A stretch of DNA of 64,000 nt from Thermococcus zilligii AN1 (GTDB lineage: Archaea > Methanobacteriota_B > Thermococci > Thermococcales > Thermococcaceae). Where the stretch lies: assembly GCF_000258515.1 (NCBI RefSeq), contig NZ_AJLF01000001.1:682001-746000 (forward strand). The letters run 5' to 3'. The notes beneath the pieces were generated by a model, which saw only the letters and a program-made list of their open reading frames with translations, did no database searches and was not told the origin of the DNA. Below, piece after piece: positions 5,784 through 40,154 of the stretch (positions within the stretch are counted from its first letter, which is position 1; each line of letters opens with the position of its first letter). Both the position numbers and the translations under genes were made by a program.

Positions 5784-6497
5784 GGGCACCGGCCCGCTTG
5801 GGGCGGTTCTGAAACTCGTGTTCGTGGATTTCGACCTTAACCAGGTCGACCCAGTGGCCATGCTCTCAAGCCTGTTTAAGGCGGTTCTGAAACACATGAA
5901 GCCATTTGACAAGTACTTCTTCTACAGGGACGCCGGGTGTTCTCAAGCCTGTTTAAGGCGGTTCTGAAACTGAAAAAAGTACGGAGGGAGGGAAATGGCG
6001 GCAACGATTTCGTTTTCAAGCCTGTTTAAGGCGGTTCTGAAACGCGACATAGAAGCAAGAGAAATTGATCAAGACAGAAGTAAATAGTTTTCAAGCCTGT
6101 TTAAGGCGGTTCTGAAACTAGGATTACGGTAGTGACACCGGATTTGACATGTAGTACCAGTTTTCAAGCCTGTTTAAGGCGGTTCTGAAACCCTCCCTCA
6201 TGGCAGTCATTTCGTTATAACTCCACCGATGATCCGTTTTCAAGCCTGTTTAAGGCGGTTCTGAAACACGTATGGGGGTAGAAGAATGAAGTACGTGACA
6301 ATTGGGAGGCACCGTTTTCAAGCCTGTTTAAGGCGGTTCTGAAACCAAGTAATTATCTCACTACCATACCTCGATGGAGACGAGCCAATACAGTTTTCAA
6401 GCCTGTTTAAGGCGGTTCTGAAACTAAACAAGTCTGGCATGGATATTCTTGAACTGCCGATAGAAGTTTTCAAGCCTGTTTAAGGCGGTTCTGAAAC
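5784..6497 (-). CRISPR. CRISPR array 1 (9 repeats plus one decayed repeat)
   Basis: Nine near-identical 32-bp repeats start at 5862, 5939, 6012, 6087, 6160, 6236, 6314, 6393 and 6466; spacers are 41-47 bp. In the transcribed (minus) sense the repeat begins GTTTCAGAACCGCC and ends AGGCTTGAAAAC. A decayed repeat (GGGGCGGTTCTGAAAC, ending 5815) marks the trailer end, and the two next repeats carry one or two changes (GCTCTCAAG, GTTCTCAAG), as expected far from the leader. The leader with its promoter lies on the right (6498 onward), so transcription runs right to left. Its repeat shares GGTTCTGAAAC with array 2 and differs by one base from the GATTCTGAAAC of array 3. Confidence 0.98.
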
Positions 6498-7230
6498 CAT
6501 ATGCTTTCTCGCCCCCTCGGGCGAATAAAGTAAAGACAAACCCCTATATAAGCTTTTCGCTCCTCTAAGGCCGCAAAAAATCAGCCCCAGGAAAGCTTTT
6601 TCAGGACTAACGCCCGTTGGAAAACACAGAACAGGGGCCTCCTACGGCCCTTCTGGCCACTAAAAGGACAACAAAACGGCCGTTTTTATTTAACCAGTTT
6701 TTACAGGCTTAAAAAGCTGAAACGATAGAACTCCTCTGAGTTTGCTCCACCTATCTCCGGGGAAAAGACTGCTTTTGCCTGGAAAGCCAGCGAAAGTTCC
6801 CCTTCTGACCTGGAACTAAATACCTTTCCGCTTTTCTTCTCCCGGCGAACAAAAGCCTTCCCTACCTTTTTTAGCAGTTTCTGGCTGTCTCCCCCTCCTG
6901 TTTGCAAAAACGCGCACTTGATTACTTCTATGTAACGTAAAAATGGGAAAACCGTTCCGCGGCCCCGTTTTCAGTTTTTCAGCCACCGAAGGAGAAATCA
7001 CTCCACCTATCGCCGAGGTTTCGCCCGCGGTTGCCCAGAAAAGCCACCAAACTCCCGTCCTTCCGGTGCACACTTTTTAAAACCCGGACTTTTTGGGCCT
7101 CTCCCTGTCAAAAACAGCCCTACCGGCCACTTTAGGGCCAAAGACCGCTGGCACACCTGGGTAGCCACCAGAAAAGGGAAAGCTCCTGGGGGTAACGTGC
7201 ACCGTCGCACGTATCCAACCGAAAGGTTTT
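6498..7230 (-). promoter_or_regulatory. Leader block 1 (CRISPR array 1), long non-coding element
   Basis: About 730 bases without a gene between array 1 and cas6. Next to the array is the promoter: on the minus strand GCGAAAAGCTTATATAGG (TATA at 6545-6551), then a short leader with a 6-bp hairpin TCGCCC-GAGG-GGGCGA. Upstream, roughly 550 further bases are recognisably the same sequence as behind arrays 2 and 3: shared stretches include GTTGGAAAACAC, CTCCACCTATC (near 6746 and again near 7002), TTCTATGTAACGTAAAAATG and TTTTTCAGCCACCG. Block 1 is closest to block 3. Frames inside are open only by chance (see rejected list). Confidence 0.85.
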
Positions 7231-7255: not shown

Positions 7256-7990
7256 ATGAGGATAAAGCTCGACCTCAGGTCCGAGGAAAGCTTCCCCGAG
7301 TGGGCCTTTGGTAAGCACGCGATACAGGCCATGATATACACCCACCTCGACTCCACCGAATACGGGAAGCTCCACGATTCCCGGGGGTTCAAGTTCTTCA
7401 CCTTCTCCGACCTCTACCCGAGCGGGCACTTCAGGCCGGGGACGGTGAAGAGCCTCATCATCAGCTCGCCCGACGAGGGGTTTATAGAGACCCTCTACGA
7501 GAAGCTCCTCCCGGACGAAAGGCTCTACTTCGGGGAGCACTCCCTGGAGGTAGTCTCCATCAAGAAGTTCAGGCTGAGGCCCGGGAGGGCTTTCATAACG
7601 GGCTCGCCGGTAGTTGTCGCGGCCAGGCCAGGGGCAGGGAGGTTCTTCACCTTCCACCACGACGGCAGTCTGGACTACTTCATAAGCGCAATAACACGGA
7701 ACGCGGTGGAAAAATACTCCTCCTTCACCGGCGAATACTTCGGGCTCGACGGCCCCCTCTTCACGAGGATGGTGCCGAGGGTCAGGAAGGACGGCTGGGT
7801 GGACGTTTACGTGAGGGTGAACATAAGGGGGAGATACTTCGACGTGCCTGGCTCCACCTGGAAGCTCTTAGAGGCGGAGGTGACCCCGGACAACAGGGAC
7901 TTCTACGCCTTTATAATGGACGCCGGCGTTGGGATCCTCAACTCCCTTGGCTTCGGCTTCATAAACCCCATCAGGCCCACCAGGGGCTGA
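7256..7990 (+). CDS. cas6: Cas6 pre-crRNA endoribonuclease (copy a)
   Basis: A 244-aa Cas6 that cuts pre-crRNA within repeats. The glycine-rich RAMP loop is at residues 224-235 (GVGILNSLGFGF). By alignment from memory with P. furiosus Cas6 (Y31/H46/K52), Y28, H40 and K46 are the likely catalytic residues. ATG 7256 follows a TATA-like GAAAGGTTTTTCTTTT. It lies between leader block 1 and cas1, which is convergent and overlaps its last 20 bases, so it is the natural processor for arrays 1-3. A second cas6 at 28660 is only partly similar and sits with the csm operon. Confidence 0.95.
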   Translation: MRIKLDLRSEESFPEWAFGKHAIQAMIYTHLDSTEYGKLHDSRGFKFFTFSDLYPSGHFRPGTVKSLIISSPDEGFIETLYEKLLPDERLYFGEHSLEVVSIKKFRLRPGRAFITGSPVVVAARPGAGRFFTFHHDGSLDYFISAITRNAVEKYSSFTGEYFGLDGPLFTRMVPRVRKDGWVDVYVRVNIRGRYFDVPGSTWKLLEAEVTPDNRDFYAFIMDAGVGILNSLGFGFINPIRPTRG

Positions 7991-8927
7991 AGGCCCTGTA
8001 GGTGGCCTCCCCGAGGAGGTGCCTTTTCAGTTTTCTCGCCTCATAGTCCATCATGGAGCGGTAGCTCATGTTCCTCTTCCAGGGTTTGTAATAGACAGTC
8101 CTCCTCAGCGTGTCAGTCAGGGCCGCCAGGAGCTTCTTTTTGCCTTCGCGGGACAGGTAGACAGCGTTTCCTTTCCGCGAGAAGTCCTTCTTTGAGAAGA
8201 GGCCGCTGTCCAGGGCTGCCTTTACAGTTGAGAAGACATAGAGGGGCTTGAAAATGTCCGCCAGGTCGAGGGGGAGGGAGTGCCTTCTGTCGTTTACAGC
8301 GTGCAGGAAGCCTATCGACGGGTCGAGGCCGGCCTTAACAGAGGAGGAGAACGCCAGGCCATAGGTTATTGCGTTGGCGTAGCTTATCAGCGCGTTGACC
8401 TCATCCTCCGGAGGCCTCCTCGTCCTTTTAAAGTCCTCCGCACCTATCGCCTCGCCGAAGTAGCTGTAGTAGTGGTTCCAGAGCTCAGCTTCCCTGCCCA
8501 TGACCTCCTCAACGCTCTCCCCGTCGACCCTGACCGAGTTTATTCTGACCGGGTTGATACCCCACCGCGCCAGTGTAAAGGCCATGTTGTTCTGGATGCC
8601 CTTCACGATTTCCCGGGCTATGTAAAGCCTCTTCTCAGGGTCTAAGTGGTGCTCGGCCTGGCCCAGGTGGAGCTTCCCCCTCGGTGAGGCGTCGTTGATG
8701 AAGGAGCCCTTGTAGTCGCCCCCGGTGGTATAGAAGTGCACCGGGATTCCCCTCTCGCTCAGCAGGTCTATGGCCCCGCTTGTCAGCGAGACCCTTGCCA
8801 TACAGTGGATTTCGGCAATCTGGGCCAGGGGGAGGGCCTTCTTAACGAGTTCGCCGACGAAGAAGAGCGAGTTGCCCTCCCTCTCGAGTTTGCCGTGCTG
8901 GGTGATGAAGAGGGGGTACTTCACCAC
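7971..8927 (-). CDS. cas1: Cas1 CRISPR integrase
   Basis: A 318-aa Cas1, the metal-dependent integrase of spacer acquisition, acting with Cas2. Active-site context is present: the glutamate in GREAELWNHYYSYFGEA, and the histidine and aspartate in FLHAVNDRRHSLPLDLADIF. An upstream extension to 9005 exists, but a TATA-like CCTTTTTAAT at about 8958-8968 (minus) places the transcript start just before GTG 8927 (GTG 8924 is possible), so the shorter protein VVKYPLFITQHGKL is used. It is separated from cas2 (10181-10450) by array 2 and its leader, an uncommon arrangement, and no cas4 is nearby. Confidence 0.95.
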   Translation of the reverse strand: MVKYPLFITQHGKLEREGNSLFFVGELVKKALPLAQIAEIHCMARVSLTSGAIDLLSERGIPVHFYTTGGDYKGSFINDASPRGKLHLGQAEHHLDPEKRLYIAREIVKGIQNNMAFTLARWGINPVRINSVRVDGESVEEVMGREAELWNHYYSYFGEAIGAEDFKRTRRPPEDEVNALISYANAITYGLAFSSSVKAGLDPSIGFLHAVNDRRHSLPLDLADIFKPLYVFSTVKAALDSGLFSKKDFSRKGNAVYLSREGKKKLLAALTDTLRRTVYYKPWKRNMSYRSMMDYEARKLKRHLLGEATYRAFSPWWA

Positions 8928-9009
8928 GCGACACCGGAACCCAATAACCCCCCAGGGGATTAAAAAGGTTGCGACTCTGAGACCCCCAACGGGGACGGCC
9001 GGCACGCGC

Positions 9010-9524
9010 CCCCTGAAGTTGCTCCGCCGGTTCTGAAACGGGGGGGCCGTTCCTGTTTTGGGCCTCCCCCCGGTACCCTCGCCTCCCTGTCACTGGAGGC
9101 GGGGAGGTTCCCAAAACTGCAAGCTGGTTCTGAAACGAGGCCGACGAAACGCGCGCGCACGCCCAGATAGTTGAATTCCGGCAGGTTCCCAAAACTGCAA
9201 GCTGGTTCTGAAACAGCAAAAGTAGAGCGTCGTGGGGATGCCTGGGCCCTCACCATTTGGTTCCCAAAACTGCAAGCTGGTTCTGAAACAGAGAAATAAA
9301 GGTCTACGCGGTTTATGGCAACGGGTTCTTCTATGGTTCCCAAAACTGCAAGCTGGTTCTGAAACGAGGGGAGTGACGGTATATACTTTCAAGACTGAGG
9401 CCGTAGGCCTCTTGTTCCCAAAACTGCAAGCTGGTTCTGAAACAAGGAGGGTCTCGAGGGGCTCAAGAAAGCAGCAGAAGAAGTAGCTATCCGCGTTCCC
9501 AAAACTGCAAGCTGGTTCTGAAAC
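9010..9524 (-). CRISPR. CRISPR array 2 (6 repeats plus one decayed repeat)
   Basis: Six identical 30-bp repeats start at 9107, 9185, 9260, 9336, 9414 and 9495; spacers are 45-51 bp. In the transcribed (minus) sense the repeat begins GTTTCAGAACCAGCTTG and ends CAGTTTTGGGAAC. A decayed repeat ends at 9039 (GCTCCGCCGGTTCTGAAAC), marking the trailer end. The leader is on the right from 9525. The array lies between cas1 and cas2. The small size and perfect repeat identity suggest it is young or was recently contracted. Confidence 0.98.
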
Positions 9525-10170
9525 CATAGACTTTTTCGCCCCCTCGGGCGAATAAAGTAAAGACAAACCCCTATATAAGCTTTTCGCTCCTCTAAGGCCG
9601 CGAAAAATCAGCCCTTAAAACACCCCTCCCAGACTAACCCCAGTTGGAAAACACAGAACAGGGGCCTCCGGGGGCACCCCCTGGCGTAAGAAGGCGGTTT
9701 TAGTGGCTGTTCACCAGGATTTAGCCCCTGGAGGGCCGGGCACCCAAAATTCCAGAGGCCCTCTGGGTTTACTCCACCTATCACGAAAGAAAACTCCGGT
9801 TTTTGCCGGAGAAACTACCAAAACGCCCCGTTTTTGGCCCGTGGCTGGCTCTCGTCGTTTTTATCCCCTTTTCGGGCAGGCCCAGCCCTTTGTTTCCAAA
9901 AGCGTTCATCCTGTTACTATTATACAACATAAAAATGCGAAACGGCTTCCCCGCCTTCCTTTTTTGTTTTTCAGCCACCTGAGGAGAAACCGCCCCACCT
10001 ATCGCCCGTGGTTTTCCCCGTTCTCGGCTAAAGAGCTTAAAATGCCCCCTTTGTCAATGCACAGTTTTGGAAACAGGGCCCTTTCAGCTGAGTTGGGGCA
10101 AAAATAAGGGGCCAAAAAGCAATTCCAGCCAAAAGGTGGTGGCGCACCGTGTTAAATCAAAAGCCGCCGT
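9525..10170 (-). promoter_or_regulatory. Leader block 2 (CRISPR array 2), long non-coding element
   Basis: About 650 gene-free bases between array 2 and the 3' end of cas2. The promoter core is nearly identical to that of arrays 1 and 3 (TATA 9572-9578, minus strand; same TCGCCC/GGGCGA hairpin as block 1). Beyond about 100 bases block 2 is the most diverged copy but keeps GTTGGAAAACACAGAACAGGG, CTCCACCTATC near 9773, ACATAAAAATGCGAAACGGC, TTTTTCAGCCACC and CCCCACCTATCGCC near 9992, then CAATGCACAG. No open frame is shared with the other two blocks. Confidence 0.8.
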
Positions 10171-10180
10171 TTTTAGCTTT

Positions 10181-10450
10181 TCATATCACGTTGTCGAACT
10201 CGTCCGGTGGCCGTCCGAGGTGGAAGCTCCTGACCACCCTGTCGCTGGGCAGGGAGTAGAAGAGCACCGAGTCCTCCTCCTCGTTTATCACGGAGTTCAG
10301 CTTCCTCTTCAGCTCCCTCACTTCGTTTCCCTCCAGATAGCCCTCGAAGACGCTCCTCTGTCTCCACTGGAGGTAGGCCCTGAGTATCCTGTGGACCTTA
10401 GCAACCCTCTCCTCGTTGACGTCGTAGACGACTATATAGTAGCGCGCCAT
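10181..10450 (-). CDS. cas2: Cas2 (CRISPR adaptation)
   Basis: An 89-aa Cas2 with the family start MARYYIVVYDVNEERV and the core LRAYLQWRQRSVFEGYL; Cas2 dimers bridge two Cas1 dimers in the adaptation complex. ATG 10450 is chosen over an upstream in-frame ATG at 10474 because GGTG precedes it and the family starts here. It begins 20 bases after the cmr6 stop on the same strand, so it is probably the last gene of the cmr operon, detached from cas1 by array 2. Confidence 0.95.
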   Translation of the reverse strand: MARYYIVVYDVNEERVAKVHRILRAYLQWRQRSVFEGYLEGNEVRELKRKLNSVINEEEDSVLFYSLPSDRVVRSFHLGRPPDEFDNVI

Positions 10451-10470
10451 AGGCACCACAAAGGGAAAAA

Positions 10471-11664
10471 TCATTTGAAGCGGCCGTAGCCGAGGCTCGT
10501 TTTTGCACCGACGCCGTGTTCTTTGAGGGCCTCCTCCAGGATGGCCTTCGCCTTCTCCGCCAGCTCCCCTCTTCCGAGCGGTGCGACCGCGAAGAGGAAC
10601 TCGACGCCAGGTCTGACCGTGAGGTAGATAACCGGCACGGGGTCATGCCAGTCGCCCGGCGCTTCGTCCCCCTGGTAGTACGGCCCGTAGTGGGGGTTCA
10701 TTATGTCAAACTCGAGGGGGGCTTTTAGGCTGTCAGGAGGAACAGGCTCGAGGGAAGCTTTTGAGCTGTCAGGGGAAACGGGGAGCGCGTCGAAGAAGAT
10801 GACCTCCCCGCTCTTCTCAGTCGTGCCAAAGATTTCCACGAGCTCTTTGAAGGAGACCCTGACCTTGCTGTTTTCCCCGAAGGTCGCTTGCAGTTGGGCC
10901 TCGCTGTTTTCCCCTAAGTCTACTTCCAGTTTTCCACCGGATAGCGCCCTTTCGAGCTCCCCGACGATTTCGTAGAAATCGTCCTTCTTGAGTTTGTCTT
11001 TTAGCGTGTCAAAGTTCTCATCGGCGAACTTCTCGAGTGCGTAGGCCCTCGCGATGCCCTTGAGCGCAGTCCCCGGGATGTAGGGGACACCGTAGTTCCG
11101 GAGCAACCTTATGCTGGTCTCATAGACGCTCTCATCGCCGAGGCCGACGACGAGACGGGAGGCCGTTTTTAGGCGGAAGACGTTGTTTTTGGCCAGCGTC
11201 TTAACCATTTCCTCGTAGAGGTCGAAGAATTTCTTGTAAGCCTGCAGGGCCTCATCCCCTATTTCAAGCCCCTTTTCGCCCACCTCCTCCTTGAGCACGC
11301 TCCCGGAGACCTTGGTGGGCACTCCTTTATCATTTTTCCCCCCGGCGTCGTTGTTCGCTATCTTGCCCTGACTGTTACCAGTGGTTGGCACTTCTTTCCA
11401 TTCGTAGGGGGCGAACTTGGCGAGCTTTAAGCTGAGGTTGTCTATCCCTTTCCAGGGATCGTTTTGAAGTGCCTCCAACGTTTTGGCCGGGACGATGTAC
11501 CTTACCTTTTTCCCACTCTTATCCCGATTGTCCCGCTCGTGGTGATTTTTTCCGGGGTTGTTTCTGTTTTTCTCCGGGCCTTTTCCCTTCTGGTGGGGGC
11601 CGTTTTGGTTATTACCCCCTCCCCCGTGGCGGCCTTTCTGGGGCTTTCCCCTGTGAGGCTCCAT
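10471..11664 (-). CDS. cmr6: Cmr6, type III-B RAMP subunit
   Basis: A 397-aa Cmr6, a Cas7-group RAMP capping the crRNA-binding backbone of the Cmr complex. RAMP signatures: VPYIPGTALKGIARAYALE and the C-terminal GAKTSLGYGRFK. ATG 11664 follows GGTGAG. Two oddities: residues 1-62 form a low-complexity basic tail rich in G, N, H, K and R (GRHGGGGNNQNGPHQKGKG and similar), and a 12-residue tandem duplication (SPDSSKASLEP then VPPDSLKAPLE; DNA copies 10747-10782 and 10711-10746) lies just before the conserved DIMNPHYGPYY. It overlaps the end of cmr5. Confidence 0.93.
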   Translation of the reverse strand: MEPHRGKPQKGRHGGGGNNQNGPHQKGKGPEKNRNNPGKNHHERDNRDKSGKKVRYIVPAKTLEALQNDPWKGIDNLSLKLAKFAPYEWKEVPTTGNSQGKIANNDAGGKNDKGVPTKVSGSVLKEEVGEKGLEIGDEALQAYKKFFDLYEEMVKTLAKNNVFRLKTASRLVVGLGDESVYETSIRLLRNYGVPYIPGTALKGIARAYALEKFADENFDTLKDKLKKDDFYEIVGELERALSGGKLEVDLGENSEAQLQATFGENSKVRVSFKELVEIFGTTEKSGEVIFFDALPVSPDSSKASLEPVPPDSLKAPLEFDIMNPHYGPYYQGDEAPGDWHDPVPVIYLTVRPGVEFLFAVAPLGRGELAEKAKAILEEALKEHGVGAKTSLGYGRFK

Positions 11665-19845: not shown

Positions 19846-20280
19846 CGTGCCGCCACCGGGTTCCTCACCCGCATGGTAGTACAGGAAAATTCACGACACG
19901 AAAAAGCCCCGTGCTTCCAGAGGCCCGCCGTGCAGGGCCCGGGCGGTGCCGCCGTCGACGGTTATGGAAAACGCCGGTTCGCCCTTTTCATCGAAGGGGG
20001 ATACCACGTAAGCGTTTTGCCGGGCTCTATTTTTGCCTTCTTGGAGACCTTCCGCACCCTCTTTTGACACCCCGTTGGGGTACCCGGCCCCGCAATCAAT
20101 ACCGGCGAGGGAACTATACCACAGGAAGACTTTCCCGGGTCTGCTAAGACCATATCCGGAACTTTGGAAACGGCCGAACGCGCAAAGTTTGAGTGGTGCC
20201 GCCGGGGTTTCAGCTAAGACGGGCCTAAAACCGGAACCCGACCTCGAAGACAAACCGGGGCCCAAACGGGCTGTTGTTAG
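19846..20280. other. Gene-free stretch between cmr promoter and array 3 trailer
   Basis: About 430 bases with open frames on both strands but no ribosome site, no family resemblance and no consistent coding pattern. It contains the upstream part of the cmr promoter region and ends at a decayed repeat (CGCTTAAGGCGGTTCTAAAAC, ending 20311). I see nothing else that can be supported. Confidence 0.5.
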
Positions 20281-22450
20281 CCCCCAGGCCCGCTTAAGGC
20301 GGTTCTAAAACATGAAAAACATATGGAGGGATGGGGTTGAAGTATGTGGTGGGCCGCTTTCCACGCCCCTAAGGCGATTCTGAAACGCAAGTGTTGGACG
20401 ATTTAATGGGGCTTCTCTACGTAAGAGGGGTTTCCACGCCCCTAAGGCGATTCTGAAACTCCAGGTAGAGTTCCCGGAAAAAGTTGGAGCAGAAGTTCTG
20501 GCAGATTTCCAAGCCCCAAGGCTATTCTGAAACGAGCAAAAACTGATGAGAGTGTCCGAATACCTTAGGTGGCTTGCAGATTTCCAAGCCCCAAGGCTAT
20601 TCTGAAACGGCTGCAAACAGCGTTCATTTATACCCAGTGGATGGCAATGGAATTTCCAAGCCCCAAGGCGATTCTGAAACGTTCAGGGTTTTTGAAGTTG
20701 TTACGAGTAGGAGGTTGCACTTATTTCCAAGCCCCAAGGCGATTCTGAAACCTTCGAAATTGAAGTGAACCGGGGTGGGTCTTGTTTTGAAGTTTCCACG
20801 CCCCAAGGCGATTCTGAAACTATGTAGGTACCGCCAAACCCCGGACAACATATACGTGATCGATGACAGATTTCCACGCCCCTAAGGTGATTCTGAAACA
20901 CGCTGCCGCGACGGGGGCCGACGTTTTGGTCCCCAGCATTTCCACGCCCCTAAGGCGGTTCTGAAACGATGGAAAAGGGGTTCATCACTATCGGAAGGCA
21001 TCGGTACACGATTCCACGCCCCAAGGCGATTCTGAAACAGAGAAGCTCGGGCCAGTATTTGAAATAGATACAGGATTCCACGCCCCCAAGGCTGTTCTGA
21101 AACGATTTTGCGAAGCGGCTTTCATTCTTGGACTCGGAGGTCACTACTTGAATTCCACGCCCCTAAGGCGATTCTGAAACCTGAAACTAAAATTTTATAA
21201 GGGACTCAAAACGCCCATCCAACTCGACTTTCCACGCCCCTAAGGCGATTCTGAAACTGAAGCGGGTGTTTGGCAAGTTGTATCCTGATGTGAAGAGCAT
21301 CTTTCCACGCCCCTAAGGCGATTCTGAAACATGGCGTATAAGCCCTGTCTAGAACCTACACAGGTAGGATAGAGTTTCCAAGCCCCAAGGCGATTCTGAA
21401 ACGACCATAAACAAGTACAGGGCAATGGTTGCCGTTTTCCCCACGGACTTTCCACGCCCCTAAGGCGATTCTGAAACGCTTGATAGGTTCTTGAATATCA
21501 GGAACTGCCTTGAAGAGCTACTTTCCACGCCCCTAAGGCGATTCTGAAACTGGAGGTGAAGGGAAATGCATTGGTCGGAGGCGCTAAGGAGGCTATTTCC
21601 ACGCCCCTAAGGCGATTCTGAAACGGGGAGGATCGACAGCAAAGATAAGCATAACACCGAATTACCGTATTTCCACGCCCCTAAGGCGGTTCTGAAACGT
21701 ACCCAGCCAAGGTTCATATAGACCTCATCAGAGGGACCCGGGATTTCCACGCCCCTAAGGCGATTCTGAAACTTGCCATTGGCGAACAGGTTTGCAATCT
21801 ACGAGGTTGCAGGCATTGACTTTCCAAGCCCCTAAGGCGATTCTGAAACTCATCTGAAGGTACTGACCAATGTTTGGGCGAAGGTGGAAGAGGTACTTTC
21901 CACGCCCCTAAGGCGATTCTGAAACTTCCCTCAAAAGAGGCCGCTCTGGCGGCCGGGGCGGATGTTGTTGCTTTCCAAGCCCCAAGGCGATTCTGAAACG
22001 GGAGGATACGTTGTGGGTAGAGGCGCATATTCCAGTCAGAGAGTCTTTCCAAGCCCCAAGGCGATTCTGAAACGACTCCCCCACGCCTATGAGTAGGCGT
22101 AGTGTCGCCCGGGGAGGGGACGGGATTTCCAAGCCCCAAGGCGATTCTGAAACCGGAGGAGCAAGCAGAGAAGTTTGTTAGCCTCTTTCAGGGGCTAAGG
22201 ATTTCCAAGCCCCAAGGCGATTCTGAAACTTGGTAAGAAGTTTGCTGAGAAAAAAGAAGTAAACATTGACGAGTAGATTTCCAAGCCCCAAGGCGATTCT
22301 GAAACCAAGAAATGACGAGCATTTCTATTGTTTCTCACCTCGCTCTCCTCCATATTTCCAAGCCCCAAGGCGATTCTGAAACATCTTCCAAAAGAAAGAG
22401 GATGCCCTTGCAGCGGGGGCTATTTCCAAGCCCCAAGGCGATTCTGAAAC
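20281..22450 (-). CRISPR. CRISPR array 3 (29 repeats plus one decayed repeat)
   Basis: Twenty-nine repeats from 20358 to 22450, plus a decayed repeat ending 20311 at the trailer end; spacers are 36-50 bp. Two repeat alleles are mixed: a 29-bp form, in plus sense TTTCCACGCCCCTAAGG then CGATTCTGAAAC, and a 28-bp form with TTTCCAAGCCCCAAGG. The seven repeats nearest the leader (21972-22450) are all the 28-bp form; repeats 12-22 are mostly the 29-bp form; repeats 3-7 are mainly 28-bp again. The leader is on the right, so transcription is on the minus strand. The trailer abuts the gene-free stretch before cmr1. Confidence 0.98.
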
Positions 22451-23060
22451 CATATGCTTTTTCGCCCTTTCTGACAGATAAAGTAGAGAGAAACCCCTAT
22501 ATAAGCTTTTCGCTCCTCTAAGGCCGCGAAAAATCAGCCCCAGGAAAGCTTTTTCAGGACTAACGCCCGTTGGAAAACACCGGACAGAGGGCTCCCACGG
22601 CCCCCCAGGCCGTTGAAAGGGCTACAAAACGGCCGTCTTTATCAAAGCGACTTATAAAGGTCTAAAAAGCTGAGACGACAGGCCCCCTCTGAGTTTGCTC
22701 CACCTATCTCCAGGAAAAAGGCTGCTTTAACCAAAAAAGCTGGCGAAAGTTCCCCTTCTGGCCTGGAACTAAATACCTTTCCGCTTTTCTTCTCCCGGCT
22801 AACAAAAGCCGTTCCAGCCGTTTTTAGCGGTTTCTGGCTGTCTCCCCCTTCTGTTTGCAAAAACGCGCACCTGGTTACTTCTATGTAGCGTAAAAATGCG
22901 AAACGGCTTCTCCGCCTCTCTTTTTTGTTTTTCAGCCACCGGAGGAGAAACCGCCCCACCTATCTCGCCTGGACTTCCCCCAAAACGCTAAAAACACCTT
23001 CTCCTGCCCCCTTTTTCAATGCACGGGTCTGGAAACGGGGCTGGCCTGTGCTTTTAATAC
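22451..23060 (-). promoter_or_regulatory. Leader block 3 (CRISPR array 3), long non-coding element
   Basis: About 610 gene-free bases between array 3 and the CARF-PIN gene. The promoter is the same as for arrays 1 and 2 (TATA 22498-22504 on the minus strand), but the hairpin next to the first repeat is not kept. Farther on, the sequence matches block 1 closely: CAGCCCCAGGAAAGC, CTAACGCCCGTTGGAAAAC, TTTGCTCCACCTATCTCC near 22694, CCGCTTTTCTTCTCCCGGC, CTTCTATGTAGCGTAAAAATG, TTTTTCAGCCACCGG and GCCCCACCTATC near 22954. Confidence 0.85.
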
Positions 23061-23061
23061 T

Positions 23062-24654
23062 CTAAAAAAGGCCTTGAGAGGTCTTTTCTGCCCGGGAGCC
23101 GCTGGCCCGCCGGTGCAAACGAAAAAACGGGAAAGGCAAAGGAAGAAACGCACCCTTGAGGGCCTTAAGCACCCTCCCGTACTCGAAACCGCTCAGGTAG
23201 ACCAGCTCTCTGACCCAGTCGCTGGAACCCTTGCCCCTCCATACCCCGGTCAGCTTGTACCTCCCGAGCCAGACCTCCCCGAGGACGACCGTGAGGGTGT
23301 AGAGCGTGTCCCTCAGCGCTTCCCAGCTCCCCGGGTATGCCTTCCCCGGTTCGACCCTCGCCTCGAGCTTGAAGGGGACCAGGCCGCTCCCCTTCATGGC
23401 GTCCATCTGTGAGTAGGCCCTGTCGTCCGCCGTCAGAACCACGACGTTCGCTTTCTTCTCCTCGGCGAAGGCCTTGTAGTCGAGGGCTATCTTCGTGTCG
23501 CCGTGGAAGGTCTCCCTCGAGCCCGCCCTCTCGGCGCCAAGTTTCCTCATGCTCTCAAGCTCGACCTTCGCCAGCTCCGCGAGTCTGGCCCTCGGCGTCG
23601 GCTGGTTGGAGAATTCGCCGAGTTCCTGGGAGTAGGGGAGCTTGTGGTTTGCTATTTGGCCGACCTCAAGGGCCACCTCGTCCGAGTAAACGAAGTCAAC
23701 TATCAGGTTCCCCCTCTCCTTCAGCCCCTCCTCGGCGAGAACCCTCGAGAAGGCCCTCTGCATGAGCGCGTTGGTGTCGAAGCCTATGTAGACTGGCCTC
23801 CCGCTGGCCTTGAGGGTTTTGATGAGGGAGACCAGCCCGCCCCAGTTCTCGAAGGGGACCATCCCCCCGGCTATGAGGGCCTGCCTGAAGACCCCGAAGT
23901 CGCCGTGGAGCTCATCGTTGAGGTTCACGAGGGCCGGCACCCTGTAGAGCGCCTCTTTATCGAGGCGGACGGTGCCGAGGATTACCTCGTTCCTCCCGGA
24001 GTCCGGGGGCTCGGTTTGGTCTGCCATGGAGGGGGCCGCCCTGGTCTTTACGGTCAGGGATGTCTCCCCGTCAAGGTAGAGGGAATCGAGGAGCGCCATC
24101 AGGTGCTCTCTCCTCACCGGGAGCTTTTCCGGCGACCCCTTTTTTCTCCCGCCGAAGCTGGCAGTCCCCTTCTTCCCGGTCAGCTCCTCCGTGAAGAAGA
24201 GCCTCTGCTTTACCATCGGGACCTCAAAGAGTAGCTTCCCAATGTACCTCGTCCAGTCCTCGAGGTGGAGGTAGGTAACCTCGTCCGCCCCGCCGGCCAG
24301 GGCCGCCCCGAGGAGGAGGGCACTCATGAACTTCCTGCCCGGAGTTATGTCCACGACCACCTCGTAGCCGAGTGCCTTGAGGGACTTGATTGTGCTGAGG
24401 ACCTTGTCCCTGAACTCGACCGGGTCTTCCTCCGTGAAGAGCTTCTCTTCGTCGGCTATGGCCCTGATCTCCACGCCGTACGCTTTCCCGAGCTTTTCCA
24501 AAAGCCGCTCAGTCTTCTCGAGCTGTTCTTTAACCTTTTCGTTCCAGAGCAGGTGCACTTCATCTGGAACCCAGCCCCTTACCTCCATGAGGTACCAGAG
24601 GGGGTTGAAAACGGCCTCAGGCGATGTCCCAACGGTGGTCACGTAGGCCCTCAT
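23062..24654 (-). CDS. CARF-PIN fusion protein, candidate cOA-activated ribonuclease
   Basis: A 530-aa two-domain protein. Residues 1-150 form a CARF-like domain (YVTTVGTSPEAVF at the start, VVDITPGRKFMSALLLGAA at 100-118). Residues about 285-420 form a PIN nuclease with a full acidic set: D293 (IGFDTNALM), E326 (YSDEVALE), D386 (GDTKIALDY) and D410/D411 (VLTADDRAYS). CARF domains bind cyclic oligoadenylates from Cas10 and PIN domains cut RNA, so a signal-activated RNase is the natural reading; activity is inferred. ATG 24654 has GGGTGAT upstream. It is divergent from the TM-CARF operon, sharing one promoter region. Confidence 0.85.
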   Translation of the reverse strand: MRAYVTTVGTSPEAVFNPLWYLMEVRGWVPDEVHLLWNEKVKEQLEKTERLLEKLGKAYGVEIRAIADEEKLFTEEDPVEFRDKVLSTIKSLKALGYEVVVDITPGRKFMSALLLGAALAGGADEVTYLHLEDWTRYIGKLLFEVPMVKQRLFFTEELTGKKGTASFGGRKKGSPEKLPVRREHLMALLDSLYLDGETSLTVKTRAAPSMADQTEPPDSGRNEVILGTVRLDKEALYRVPALVNLNDELHGDFGVFRQALIAGGMVPFENWGGLVSLIKTLKASGRPVYIGFDTNALMQRAFSRVLAEEGLKERGNLIVDFVYSDEVALEVGQIANHKLPYSQELGEFSNQPTPRARLAELAKVELESMRKLGAERAGSRETFHGDTKIALDYKAFAEEKKANVVVLTADDRAYSQMDAMKGSGLVPFKLEARVEPGKAYPGSWEALRDTLYTLTVVLGEVWLGRYKLTGVWRGKGSSDWVRELVYLSGFEYGRVLKALKGAFLPLPFPFFRLHRRASGSRAEKTSQGLF

Positions 24655-37638: not shown

Positions 37639-38323
37639 CGTGCTCGGGCTCGTGGTGGAGGTAAAGCCTATACAGGCCCACTTCAGGATCCCATACAACT
37701 CCCTCCTCATGGACAGCTACCCGTTCCCACCGAGGACAACGGCGATAGGCATGCTCGCCGGGGCGATGGGGTTACCGGAGGAGGGCTTCAGGGGACTGCT
37801 CAACGAGCTTCGCTATGGGGTCATCGTCGAGGAGGCCGGCTCAAGGGTGGAAGAGACCGCGGTAATCTTCAAGAAGGAGGACTCCCCGATATACCCCATA
37901 ACCAAAGTCCTGTACCACAAGCCCCACTACAGGCTCTTCTTCGCCGGGGAGGATAGGCTAATCGAGAGGGCCTACGAGGCCCTGCTGGACCCGGTTTTCA
38001 CGCCCTACCTCGGCGACAGCGAGAGCCTCCTTTATCCGGCAAGGAAGGACTACGTCAGGCTTGTGGGGGTGGAGGAAGGCAGAGAAACGACGCTCAGGAG
38101 CGTCATTCCGGAGGAGGCCTACTCATCCGGCGCGAGGTTCTTCGTCCTCAGGGGGAGCAACCTGACACCGAGGGACTACAGGATGCCCGTCGGCTTCACT
38201 TACAGCGGAAAGAAGAGGAGGGCGGTCTTCAGGAGGGTGGTGGCCTTTGCGGGTGGCTACGTCGAGCTGGCGAGCCCCGTTGAAGTTTTCCTCTTCGACG
38301 GCGAGCCGGTCTTCACCTTTTGA
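37631..38323 (+). CDS. cas5: Cas5, type I (Cst-like) subunit
   Basis: A 230-aa Cas5 of the type I-B/Cst kind. It starts at GTG 37631, overlapping the truncated cas7 stop (GTG 37640 is an alternative). Typical are PIQAHFRIPYNSLLMDSYPFPPRTT (read in parts: IQAHFRIPYNS, then YPFPPRTTAIGMLAGAMG) and the C-terminal EVFLFDGEPVF. The gene appears full length, but the partners it needs (cas8, cas7) are truncated and cas3 is absent from the window, so it is likely an orphan survivor of a lost type I system. Confidence 0.88.
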   Translation: MSDVLGLVVEVKPIQAHFRIPYNSLLMDSYPFPPRTTAIGMLAGAMGLPEEGFRGLLNELRYGVIVEEAGSRVEETAVIFKKEDSPIYPITKVLYHKPHYRLFFAGEDRLIERAYEALLDPVFTPYLGDSESLLYPARKDYVRLVGVEEGRETTLRSVIPEEAYSSGARFFVLRGSNLTPRDYRMPVGFTYSGKKRRAVFRRVVAFAGGYVELASPVEVFLFDGEPVFTF

Positions 38324-38798
38324 GTAGCACCGGCCTTTCGGTTTTTCAGGTTTTCGGCTTCTTCTTTTTAGAAAAAGGGGGCCAACGTCCGGATCCCAGA
38401 GCATGGCCGGGGGAGCCCTTTAAAGGGGCAGAGAACCCCTCAGGCGGTCGTTCAGGGCATGCGTGAGGAACCCATCGAAAGGTTTTATGGACGTGAAATA
38501 GAACTGCCATCCGGGGGAGAGGAAGGCCTTAAATCCAGAGAGAACGTTAGGGCTGGGAGCCCGAAGGGTCAAGAAAGGTGGGTAAAACATTAAAGCAAAT
38601 TTTAACCTGATACCACCGAAAGTTTTTTACAGGCGGCCCTTTGATTTTCCAGTTTTCTGTCAGTGGCCAGGGGATTTCTCTGCACCGCCAGCAAAGGCTT
38701 CGGAGGAGGTTTTATTTTTTGCGCTGGATTTATAAATGCGATGCGTTGCCACGGGTTTCCATGATAAAGCTTAAATAGGAGTTTTGACATCCCTTATT
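38324..38798. other. Gap between cas5 and array 4
   Basis: About 475 bases. A 44-codon frame (ATG 38460 to TAA 38594, MREEPIERFYGREIELPSGG ...) has plausible codons but no clear ribosome site or family and may be a relic, for example of lost cas3/cas4; I cannot show this. From about 38595 the sequence becomes T-rich and AT-rich and is the leader of array 4. Confidence 0.4.
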
Positions 38799-38825
38799 TT
38801 CGGGAAAGGTGGAAATTTCCCGAAG
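38600..38825 (+). promoter_or_regulatory. Leader and promoter of CRISPR array 4
   Basis: AT-rich leader with TATA-like GCTTAAATAGG (38769-38779), about 50 bases before the first repeat. Immediately before the repeat is a perfect 9-bp hairpin: TTCGGGAAA (38799-38807), 8-base loop, TTTCCCGAA (38816-38824). This leader is unrelated to the blocks behind arrays 1-3. Confidence 0.75.
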
Positions 38826-40154
38826 GTTTCCGTAGGACAGGATTGTGTGGAAAGGCGGAGTAAGTGGTGTTGACGCCAGCCCCACGCACTGTGAGTTTCC
38901 GTAGGACAGAATTGTGTGGAAAGCTATTCCTGGGTATATTGCATTGACGTAGTCCCTTGAGTTGTGTTTCCGTAGGACAGAATTGTGTGGAAAGATCCTT
39001 GCCCACACATTATATAGAACATCAATGAAATCCCGTTTCCGTAGGACAGAATTGTGTGGAAAGGCCAACCGGAGCGCGGCCTCTTCCGCGGCCTCTTCCG
39101 CGGTGTTTCCGTAGGACAGGATTGTGTGGAAACACAATCATAGACTCTAAATCATACCCAAGAACACATGTGTTTCCGTAGAACAGGGTTGTGTGGAAAC
39201 ATCCCAAAGGAGTCACTGGGCACGAACCGTACAGGGGTTTTGTTTCCGTAGAACAGGGTTGTGTGGAAACGTCCAAACCGGTTCAAGAACGACTCTGTTC
39301 CATTTGGTTTCCGTAGAACAGGGTTGTGTGGAAACAACGATTGGCGGATAAGGACAACCTTGACCTCCTTATCCGGTTTCCGTAGGACAGGATTGTGTGG
39401 AAACCATATAAATCCACATCGCAAACTTCTCCAACTGCTTCTTGTGTTTCCGTAGGACAGGGTTGTGTGGAAACGCCTTACTCACCTTCATTGGGTCACC
39501 CCCAAGAAATGCTGGGTTTCCGTAGAACAGGATTGTGTGGAAACATGAATGGTTTGGGGAGTTACAGGAGCGGATAAGGAAAAGTTTCCGTAGAACAGGA
39601 TTGTGTGGAAACGTGGCATACGGGAGATACAACTTTATCCTCCCATTCTCCACGTTTCCGTAGGACAGGATTGTGTGGAAACCCACATCCTTGACTTGCT
39701 TGTCCGTCCTGACGACCCGTGTTTCCGTAGAACAGGATTGTGTGGAAATATAACAACCTTGTCAAAAATATAAGTGTCATCATCTAGTTTCCGTAGAACA
39801 GGGTTGTGTGGAAACACATTACCCCTAAAGACGCTAATTCGCTCTTTTTCACCGTTTCCGTAGAACAGGATTGTGTGGAAACTTGGTGTATTTGTTGGGG
39901 TGTTTGTGGGTGTTTTTGTGGGTGTTTCCGTAGAACAGGGTTGTGTGGAAACCCCTGCACCGCTGCAAGAAGGAGAAGTGGGATCTGCTTCGTTTCCGTA
40001 GAACAGGGTTGTGTGGAAAGAGAGCCTCTTCGACAACCCTTCTGAACTCCTCATCCGTAAGTTTCCGTAGAACAGGATTGTGCGGAAACCGCTCCCAGAA
40101 GATCAAAAACTTCCTCTCTTCCGGGGGTTCCCGCAGAACGGTTTTGGTGGGGAC
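38826..40154 (+). CRISPR. CRISPR array 4 (19 repeats plus one decayed repeat)
   Basis: Nineteen 29-bp repeats from 38826 to 40089 and a decayed one at 40127-40154 (GTTCCCGCAGAACGG...). Spacers are 36-42 bp. The repeat begins GTTTCCGTAG and ends TTGTGTGGAAAC or -AAAG, of the family common in Thermococcales. The leader is on the left, so transcription is on the plus strand, in line with the csm operon. The first four repeats have GGACAG..ATTG and end AAAG; most later ones have AGAACAGG and end AAAC. The decayed copies are at the right, as expected for the trailer end. Confidence 0.98.

Follow-up and report, generated by a model that had tools for sequence, protein, structure and literature searches.

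Long CRISPR leaders of Thermococcus zilligii AN1 keep fixed module spacing and paired boxes, consistent with a docking platform for spacer integration

Three CRISPR arrays in the window, the 64,000-nucleotide stretch of Thermococcus zilligii AN1 that was analysed (C1:682001-746000), are followed by copies of one long block, and what the interior of this block keeps across species is its length, not its sequence. We consider it likely, at a probability of roughly 0.7, that these blocks are long CRISPR leaders acting as a docking platform for Cas1-Cas2, in which paired sites would fold about 250 bp of DNA.

The blocks follow without a gap on the final repeats of arrays 1 (5784..6497, about 10 repeats), 2 (9092..9524, about 6-7 repeats) and 3 (20280..22450, about 30 repeats), at positions 6498, 9525 and 22451, respectively. 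As the leader side is the right-hand one in window coordinates, the leaders are on the minus strand, like the arrays. Leader 1 has a conserved core, defined by alignment, at 6498..7020, leader 2 lies at 9525..10015 and leader 3 at 22451..23153. Over 300 bp, block 2 is 70% and block 3 84% identical to block 1, and alignment revealed homology to about +520 in all three, well past the first 100-150 bp, as expected from the initial annotation, which had described the same long sequence beside each array; the islands that it named were all found, in identical order. Its extent for block 1 (6498-7230) was right at the start and too long at the other end, with the conserved core finishing near 7020 and giving way to DNA upstream of cas6 (7256..7990, plus strand, TIGR01877). 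Its count of three copies holds for the window and rises to four in the genome. A genome-wide search detected exactly these four, all of them abutting CRISPR arrays and none far from one, the fourth being located at C1:496683, 185 kb away, next to an array whose repeat differs again. Block 3 resembles this fourth copy to about +700 (window position 23153), giving a homology length of ~500-700 bp among the four copies, well beyond the promoter. The repeats of the arrays, which had been reported as different, do differ inside but are common at their ends (GTTTCAGRAY on the leader side and a TTGRRAA-like sequence at the other). In arrays 1-3 and in most relatives the repeats next to the leader are intact and those at the far end degenerate, which identifies the growing end; in array 1 the leader-proximal copies are identical. 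The GC content of the leader modules in the window is about 0.44-0.49. At its distal end, leader 3 is entered by a 530-aa ORF (23062-24654, no NCBIfam match), the stop of which has seemingly been lost here, as the homologous frame in a relative (L020) ends about 30 codons earlier.

We screened 94 Thermococcaceae genomes by DNA search and with two profile models built from sequence only, one for the distal module (R1, 117 nt) and one for the proximal module (R2, 77 nt). R1 detected the leader in 11 of them, all from one genus, and two named leader-bearing relatives are Thermococcus MAGs. Confident matches in relatives had an array adjoining on the correct side wherever the flank was readable, and leaders outside the set used for model building (G017d, G022, G032, G042, G066 and G069) were also found beside arrays. 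A second copy in G059 sits at a contig end, with the array out of view, and has its ACCTATC boxes 256 bp apart. A weak match at G042:C3 (E 0.0014) had no array beside it and is probably due to chance. Genome G066 was considered as a candidate array-free relic and rejected when its contig ends were read, revealing arrays at both copies. The exact distal-box pattern, sought in 84,980 genomes, retrieved loci of Thermococcus and a few bacterial matches, the latter at about chance level by our estimate, and had no copies in viral contigs. R2 additionally detected leaders shortened by the loss of their distal module (G016, G040c and G069b), and the short or decayed arrays behind them fit our hypothesis but are too few and too confounded to serve as evidence.

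Two interrupted leaders were also observed. One, G042c (L100, G042:C1:344618), was also picked up by R2; an inserted ~1.9 kb with transposase-like neighbours separates its proximal module from the distal one, and the array retains 8 identical repeats. In L071 (G069:C36:6830) the leader breaks off at about +110, where a toxin-antitoxin-like gene pair has been inserted, and a single decayed repeat remains; this amounts to a natural knock-out of the distal leader.

The distance between proximal and distal modules was taken from independent profile matches in 23 leaders. Measured to the start of the distal module, it was 399-403 bp in 17 of these (399 or 400 bp in 15, 403 bp in two), 411 bp in five (G017 and one of G040), and 365 bp in a single leader, block 2 of the window. 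Mean identity of the interior between clades was 61.6%, compared with 59.9 ± 3.1% for shuffled sequences in the same aligner, showing that the interior is saturated; between-clade leader pairs had accumulated 141-167 observed substitutions with merely 0-2 gap openings. In six leader-cas2 loci, the segment from the second box to the cas2 stop ranged from 177 to 228 bp.

The box CTCCACCTATC is present twice per leader. Of the 23 leaders, 18 have the two copies at an interval of 253-256 bp; the first copy is at +246 in 14 leaders and at +257 in five. In leader 1, boxes B1 (6745..6758; CTCCACCTATCTCC when read on the plus strand) and B2 (7001..7014) are 256 bp apart, and box A2 (6922..6945), an imperfect palindrome TTAC-N6-GTAA followed by CGTAAAAATG, lies between them. 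The same interval separates B1 (22698..22711) and B2 (22954..22967) in leader 3, where A2 is at 22875..22898; all of these boxes are assigned to the minus strand, as are those of leader 2. The latter, 35 bp shorter between B1 (9772..9785) and A2 (9914..9942, diverged), has its B2 (9993..10006) at 221 bp from B1. Block 2 departs from the usual spacing in both measures (221/365 bp), and its array is of similar quality, only short. Genome G022 has no clear B boxes and G066 no second B box. An unbiased self-comparison of the leaders gave a peak at 254-256 bp.

Sister leaders in genomes G023 and G045, which belong with the same Cas1 clade as that of the window, have unrelated boxes, TCAAGCGCYTTAC and RTAATCGGGATYCC, each of which likewise occurs twice, at an interval of exactly 256 bp; in G045a the second of these boxes (RTAATCGGGATYCC) carries identical alterations in its two copies. 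The value of 256 bp was picked independently by both leader families, and in a block-shuffle control on the single best offset it was equalled in 0/300 shuffles for the sister family and 4/300 for this one. Within a subfamily (L098 of G032 and L099 of G042), TAGTTGGATT occurs at +324 and +578 in 4/4 leaders, exactly 254 bp apart and in register with the first duplicated box. We take these patterns to mean that a single module of about 75-100 bp is probably present twice in the leader. With a helical repeat near 10.7 bp at growth temperature, 256 bp corresponds to about 24 helical turns. A bolder proposal, which we offer tentatively and at less than even odds, is that the leader works as a molecular ruler, with one binding module present in duplicate ~256 bp apart; the box sequence would be exchangeable provided that the two copies change in concert and their distance is preserved, and this would imply a hitherto undescribed archaeal leader-folding factor in the place of IHF.

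Cas1 proteins of the Thermococcaceae fall into three identity classes. The class of the window (clade A; cas1 at 7971..9005, minus strand), counted with a fragment in G040, and the leader family each occur in 11 genomes and have seven in common, a co-occurrence with a hypergeometric p of 9e-6 when shared ancestry is ignored. Four leader genomes (G020, G059, G066 and G069) have no clade-A Cas1 in the assembly, and four genomes with this Cas1 have no leader of the family. The leader family and its sister family are both in one Cas1 clade, and in several loci the leader adjoins cas2, cas1 or cas6, as in the window, where cas2 (10181..10474, minus strand, TIGR01573) stands beside leader 2. The earlier proposal of an adaptation element is supported by the position of the block, found only beside arrays and on the integration side, by its co-occurrence with a Cas1 clade and by the spacing conserved across species.

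The near-constant spacing across species suggests a folded DNA docking platform, and we infer protein binding to the boxes, folding of the DNA and dependence of integration on both. The array-adjacent ~60 bp would provide the promoter and a hairpin, and the remaining ~450-600 bp would be the platform on which Cas1-Cas2 integrates spacers. The duplicated boxes ~256 bp apart would bind the same putative factor, which may loop or wrap ~250 bp of leader and so place Cas1-Cas2 on the leader-repeat junction. If the leader, and not the repeat, defines the integration target, four arrays with different repeat interiors could share one leader and one Cas1.

Several elements of this scheme have precedents. 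Long archaeal leaders, co-evolution of Cas1 with leaders and distal motifs are already known (PMC4390879, PMC9456107 and PMC5815122). The closest likeness is to the type I-A leader of Saccharolobus solfataricus, which also extends for hundreds of bp beside its array and, at 531 bp, exceeds the 100-500 bp that had been taken as typical of leaders; site-specific integration in vitro takes at least 400 bp of this leader, ATP and an unpurified host factor are needed as well, and the A-type Cas1-Cas2 makes specific use of a chimera of leader A with repeat C (PMC5815122). Cas1 specificity in that organism depends on the leader and not on the repeat, and we propose the same for the Thermococcus leader; the duplicated box at a fixed distance, present in Thermococcus, is not described for the S. 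solfataricus leader in the accessible part of PMC5815122. The Csa3a leader of S. islandicus is similar in combining a distal motif with a leader-end stem-loop, which is bound there by Cas1 (PMC9456107), and differs in its Csa3, as this protein was over the family cut-off in only 3/11 genomes with the Thermococcus leader. As it does not co-occur with the leader, Csa3 was rejected as the protein that generally binds the distal box. By analogy with the IHF-bent leaders of types I-E and I-F, a host factor may fold the leader to present the junction, although those leaders need only about 60 bp, and archaea are without IHF, as stated in PMC5815122. In the literature searched, which was that open without subscription, we found neither boxes duplicated at a constant ~256 bp nor leaders locked in length described. 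What is new here is the geometry of the leader, with its fixed module spacing and paired boxes.

The alternative that fares best, which we nevertheless regard as unlikely, is that the distal part serves transcriptional control, its boxes being sites for a regulator or an insulator through which pre-crRNA output is set or antisense transcription silenced, and that it plays no part in integration. The proximal module does contain a conserved putative promoter, a BRE/TATA-like sequence at a fixed place (putative array promoter of leader 1 at 6545..6559, minus strand, a TATA box with a BRE-like purine-rich stretch recognised by inspection of the conserved TATATAAGCTTTTCG). The boxes, however, are 200-530 bp upstream of the TATA box, which is far for archaeal regulators. 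In this genome exact matches to the boxes occurred only in leaders (4/4 for B, 3/3 for A2), with none at cas gene promoters, and leader type tracks the Cas1 clade. A precedent for such control is the Csa3a of Sulfolobus, which activates arrays from a leader-distal motif and also aids adaptation (PMC9456107).

It is considerably less probable that the block is a homology tract that keeps arrays recombining and owes its conservation to gene conversion between copies. The four leaders of this genome are indeed mosaics, with W1/W3 (leaders 1 and 3) 100% and W2/W4 (leader 2 and the fourth copy) 96% identical at columns 80-140, W1/W4 95% at columns 120-180, and W3/W4 95-100% beyond column 520. Gene conversion between arrays would be the simplest reading of these mosaics, and the copies do therefore exchange sequence, which supports the earlier suggestion of a recombination site only in the sense of gene conversion between copies. 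Islands and spacing persist across species with saturated interiors, and conversion within a genome cannot yield a base-exact spacing between species.

That the block encodes a non-coding RNA gene or a small protein is highly improbable: it is conserved and intergenic and its 16-18-nt leader-end hairpin covaries, but full-length leaders folded no better than shuffles on either strand (z -0.42 and 0.03), the distal module had no compensatory change, Rfam had no match to the block, stop-free runs were no longer than in shuffles for 9 of the 10 leaders examined (block 2 exceeded the shuffle range), and length changes among leaders are not multiples of three. The block is a DNA element, with no conserved reading frame, as had been noted, and no RNA fold of its body; of the earlier "DNA or RNA element" the first half stands, and an RNA element is rejected with the exception of the hairpin. 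This hairpin, TTYGCCC-N4-GGGCRAA, lies 10-27 bp from the first repeat (6508..6525, minus strand, in leader 1) and has compensatory changes at two pairs (10 cells, reached in 1/500 shuffles; covariation score, 0/500). It may act as the 5' end of the pre-crRNA or as DNA, given that leader-end stem-loops are bound by the Cas1 proteins of S. islandicus and P. furiosus (PMC9456107).

A second family of Thermococcaceae leaders (L061, L108, L109 and L149-L159; repeats like GTTTCCGTAGAAC...) is comparable with the leaders described above in being long and having boxes at fixed places, and differs from them in the boxes themselves and, by inspection, in mostly going with another Cas1 clade. In 27 leaders from two or more genera, a box sits at exactly +114 from a proximal element, and 21 of these leaders also have the palindrome TTACCAC..GTGGTAA, placed at +277 to +280, genomes of a second genus being included; a 256-bp duplication was sought in this family and not found. 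A fourth array in the window (38300-40100, plus strand, repeats GTTTCCGTAGRACAGGATTGTGTGGAAAS) has a leader of this second family, with the proximal 110 bp and the +114 box matching those of other Thermococcus and of the second genus, and a variant distal part. This leader (array at 38.8 kb) was rejected as a decayed natural negative control, as its variant distal sequence is common to G060, G017 and G051. The retention of the boxes at +114 and at +277 to +280 suggests that leaders of fixed length may be general in Thermococcaceae.

These observations bear on how archaea, lacking IHF, recognise the end of a CRISPR array at which the leader lies. The exact positions of the boxes, the natural spacing variants (+11, -35 and -2 bp) and the box-swapped sister leaders make the folding idea testable base by base, and the box sequence could serve to fish for the folding factor.
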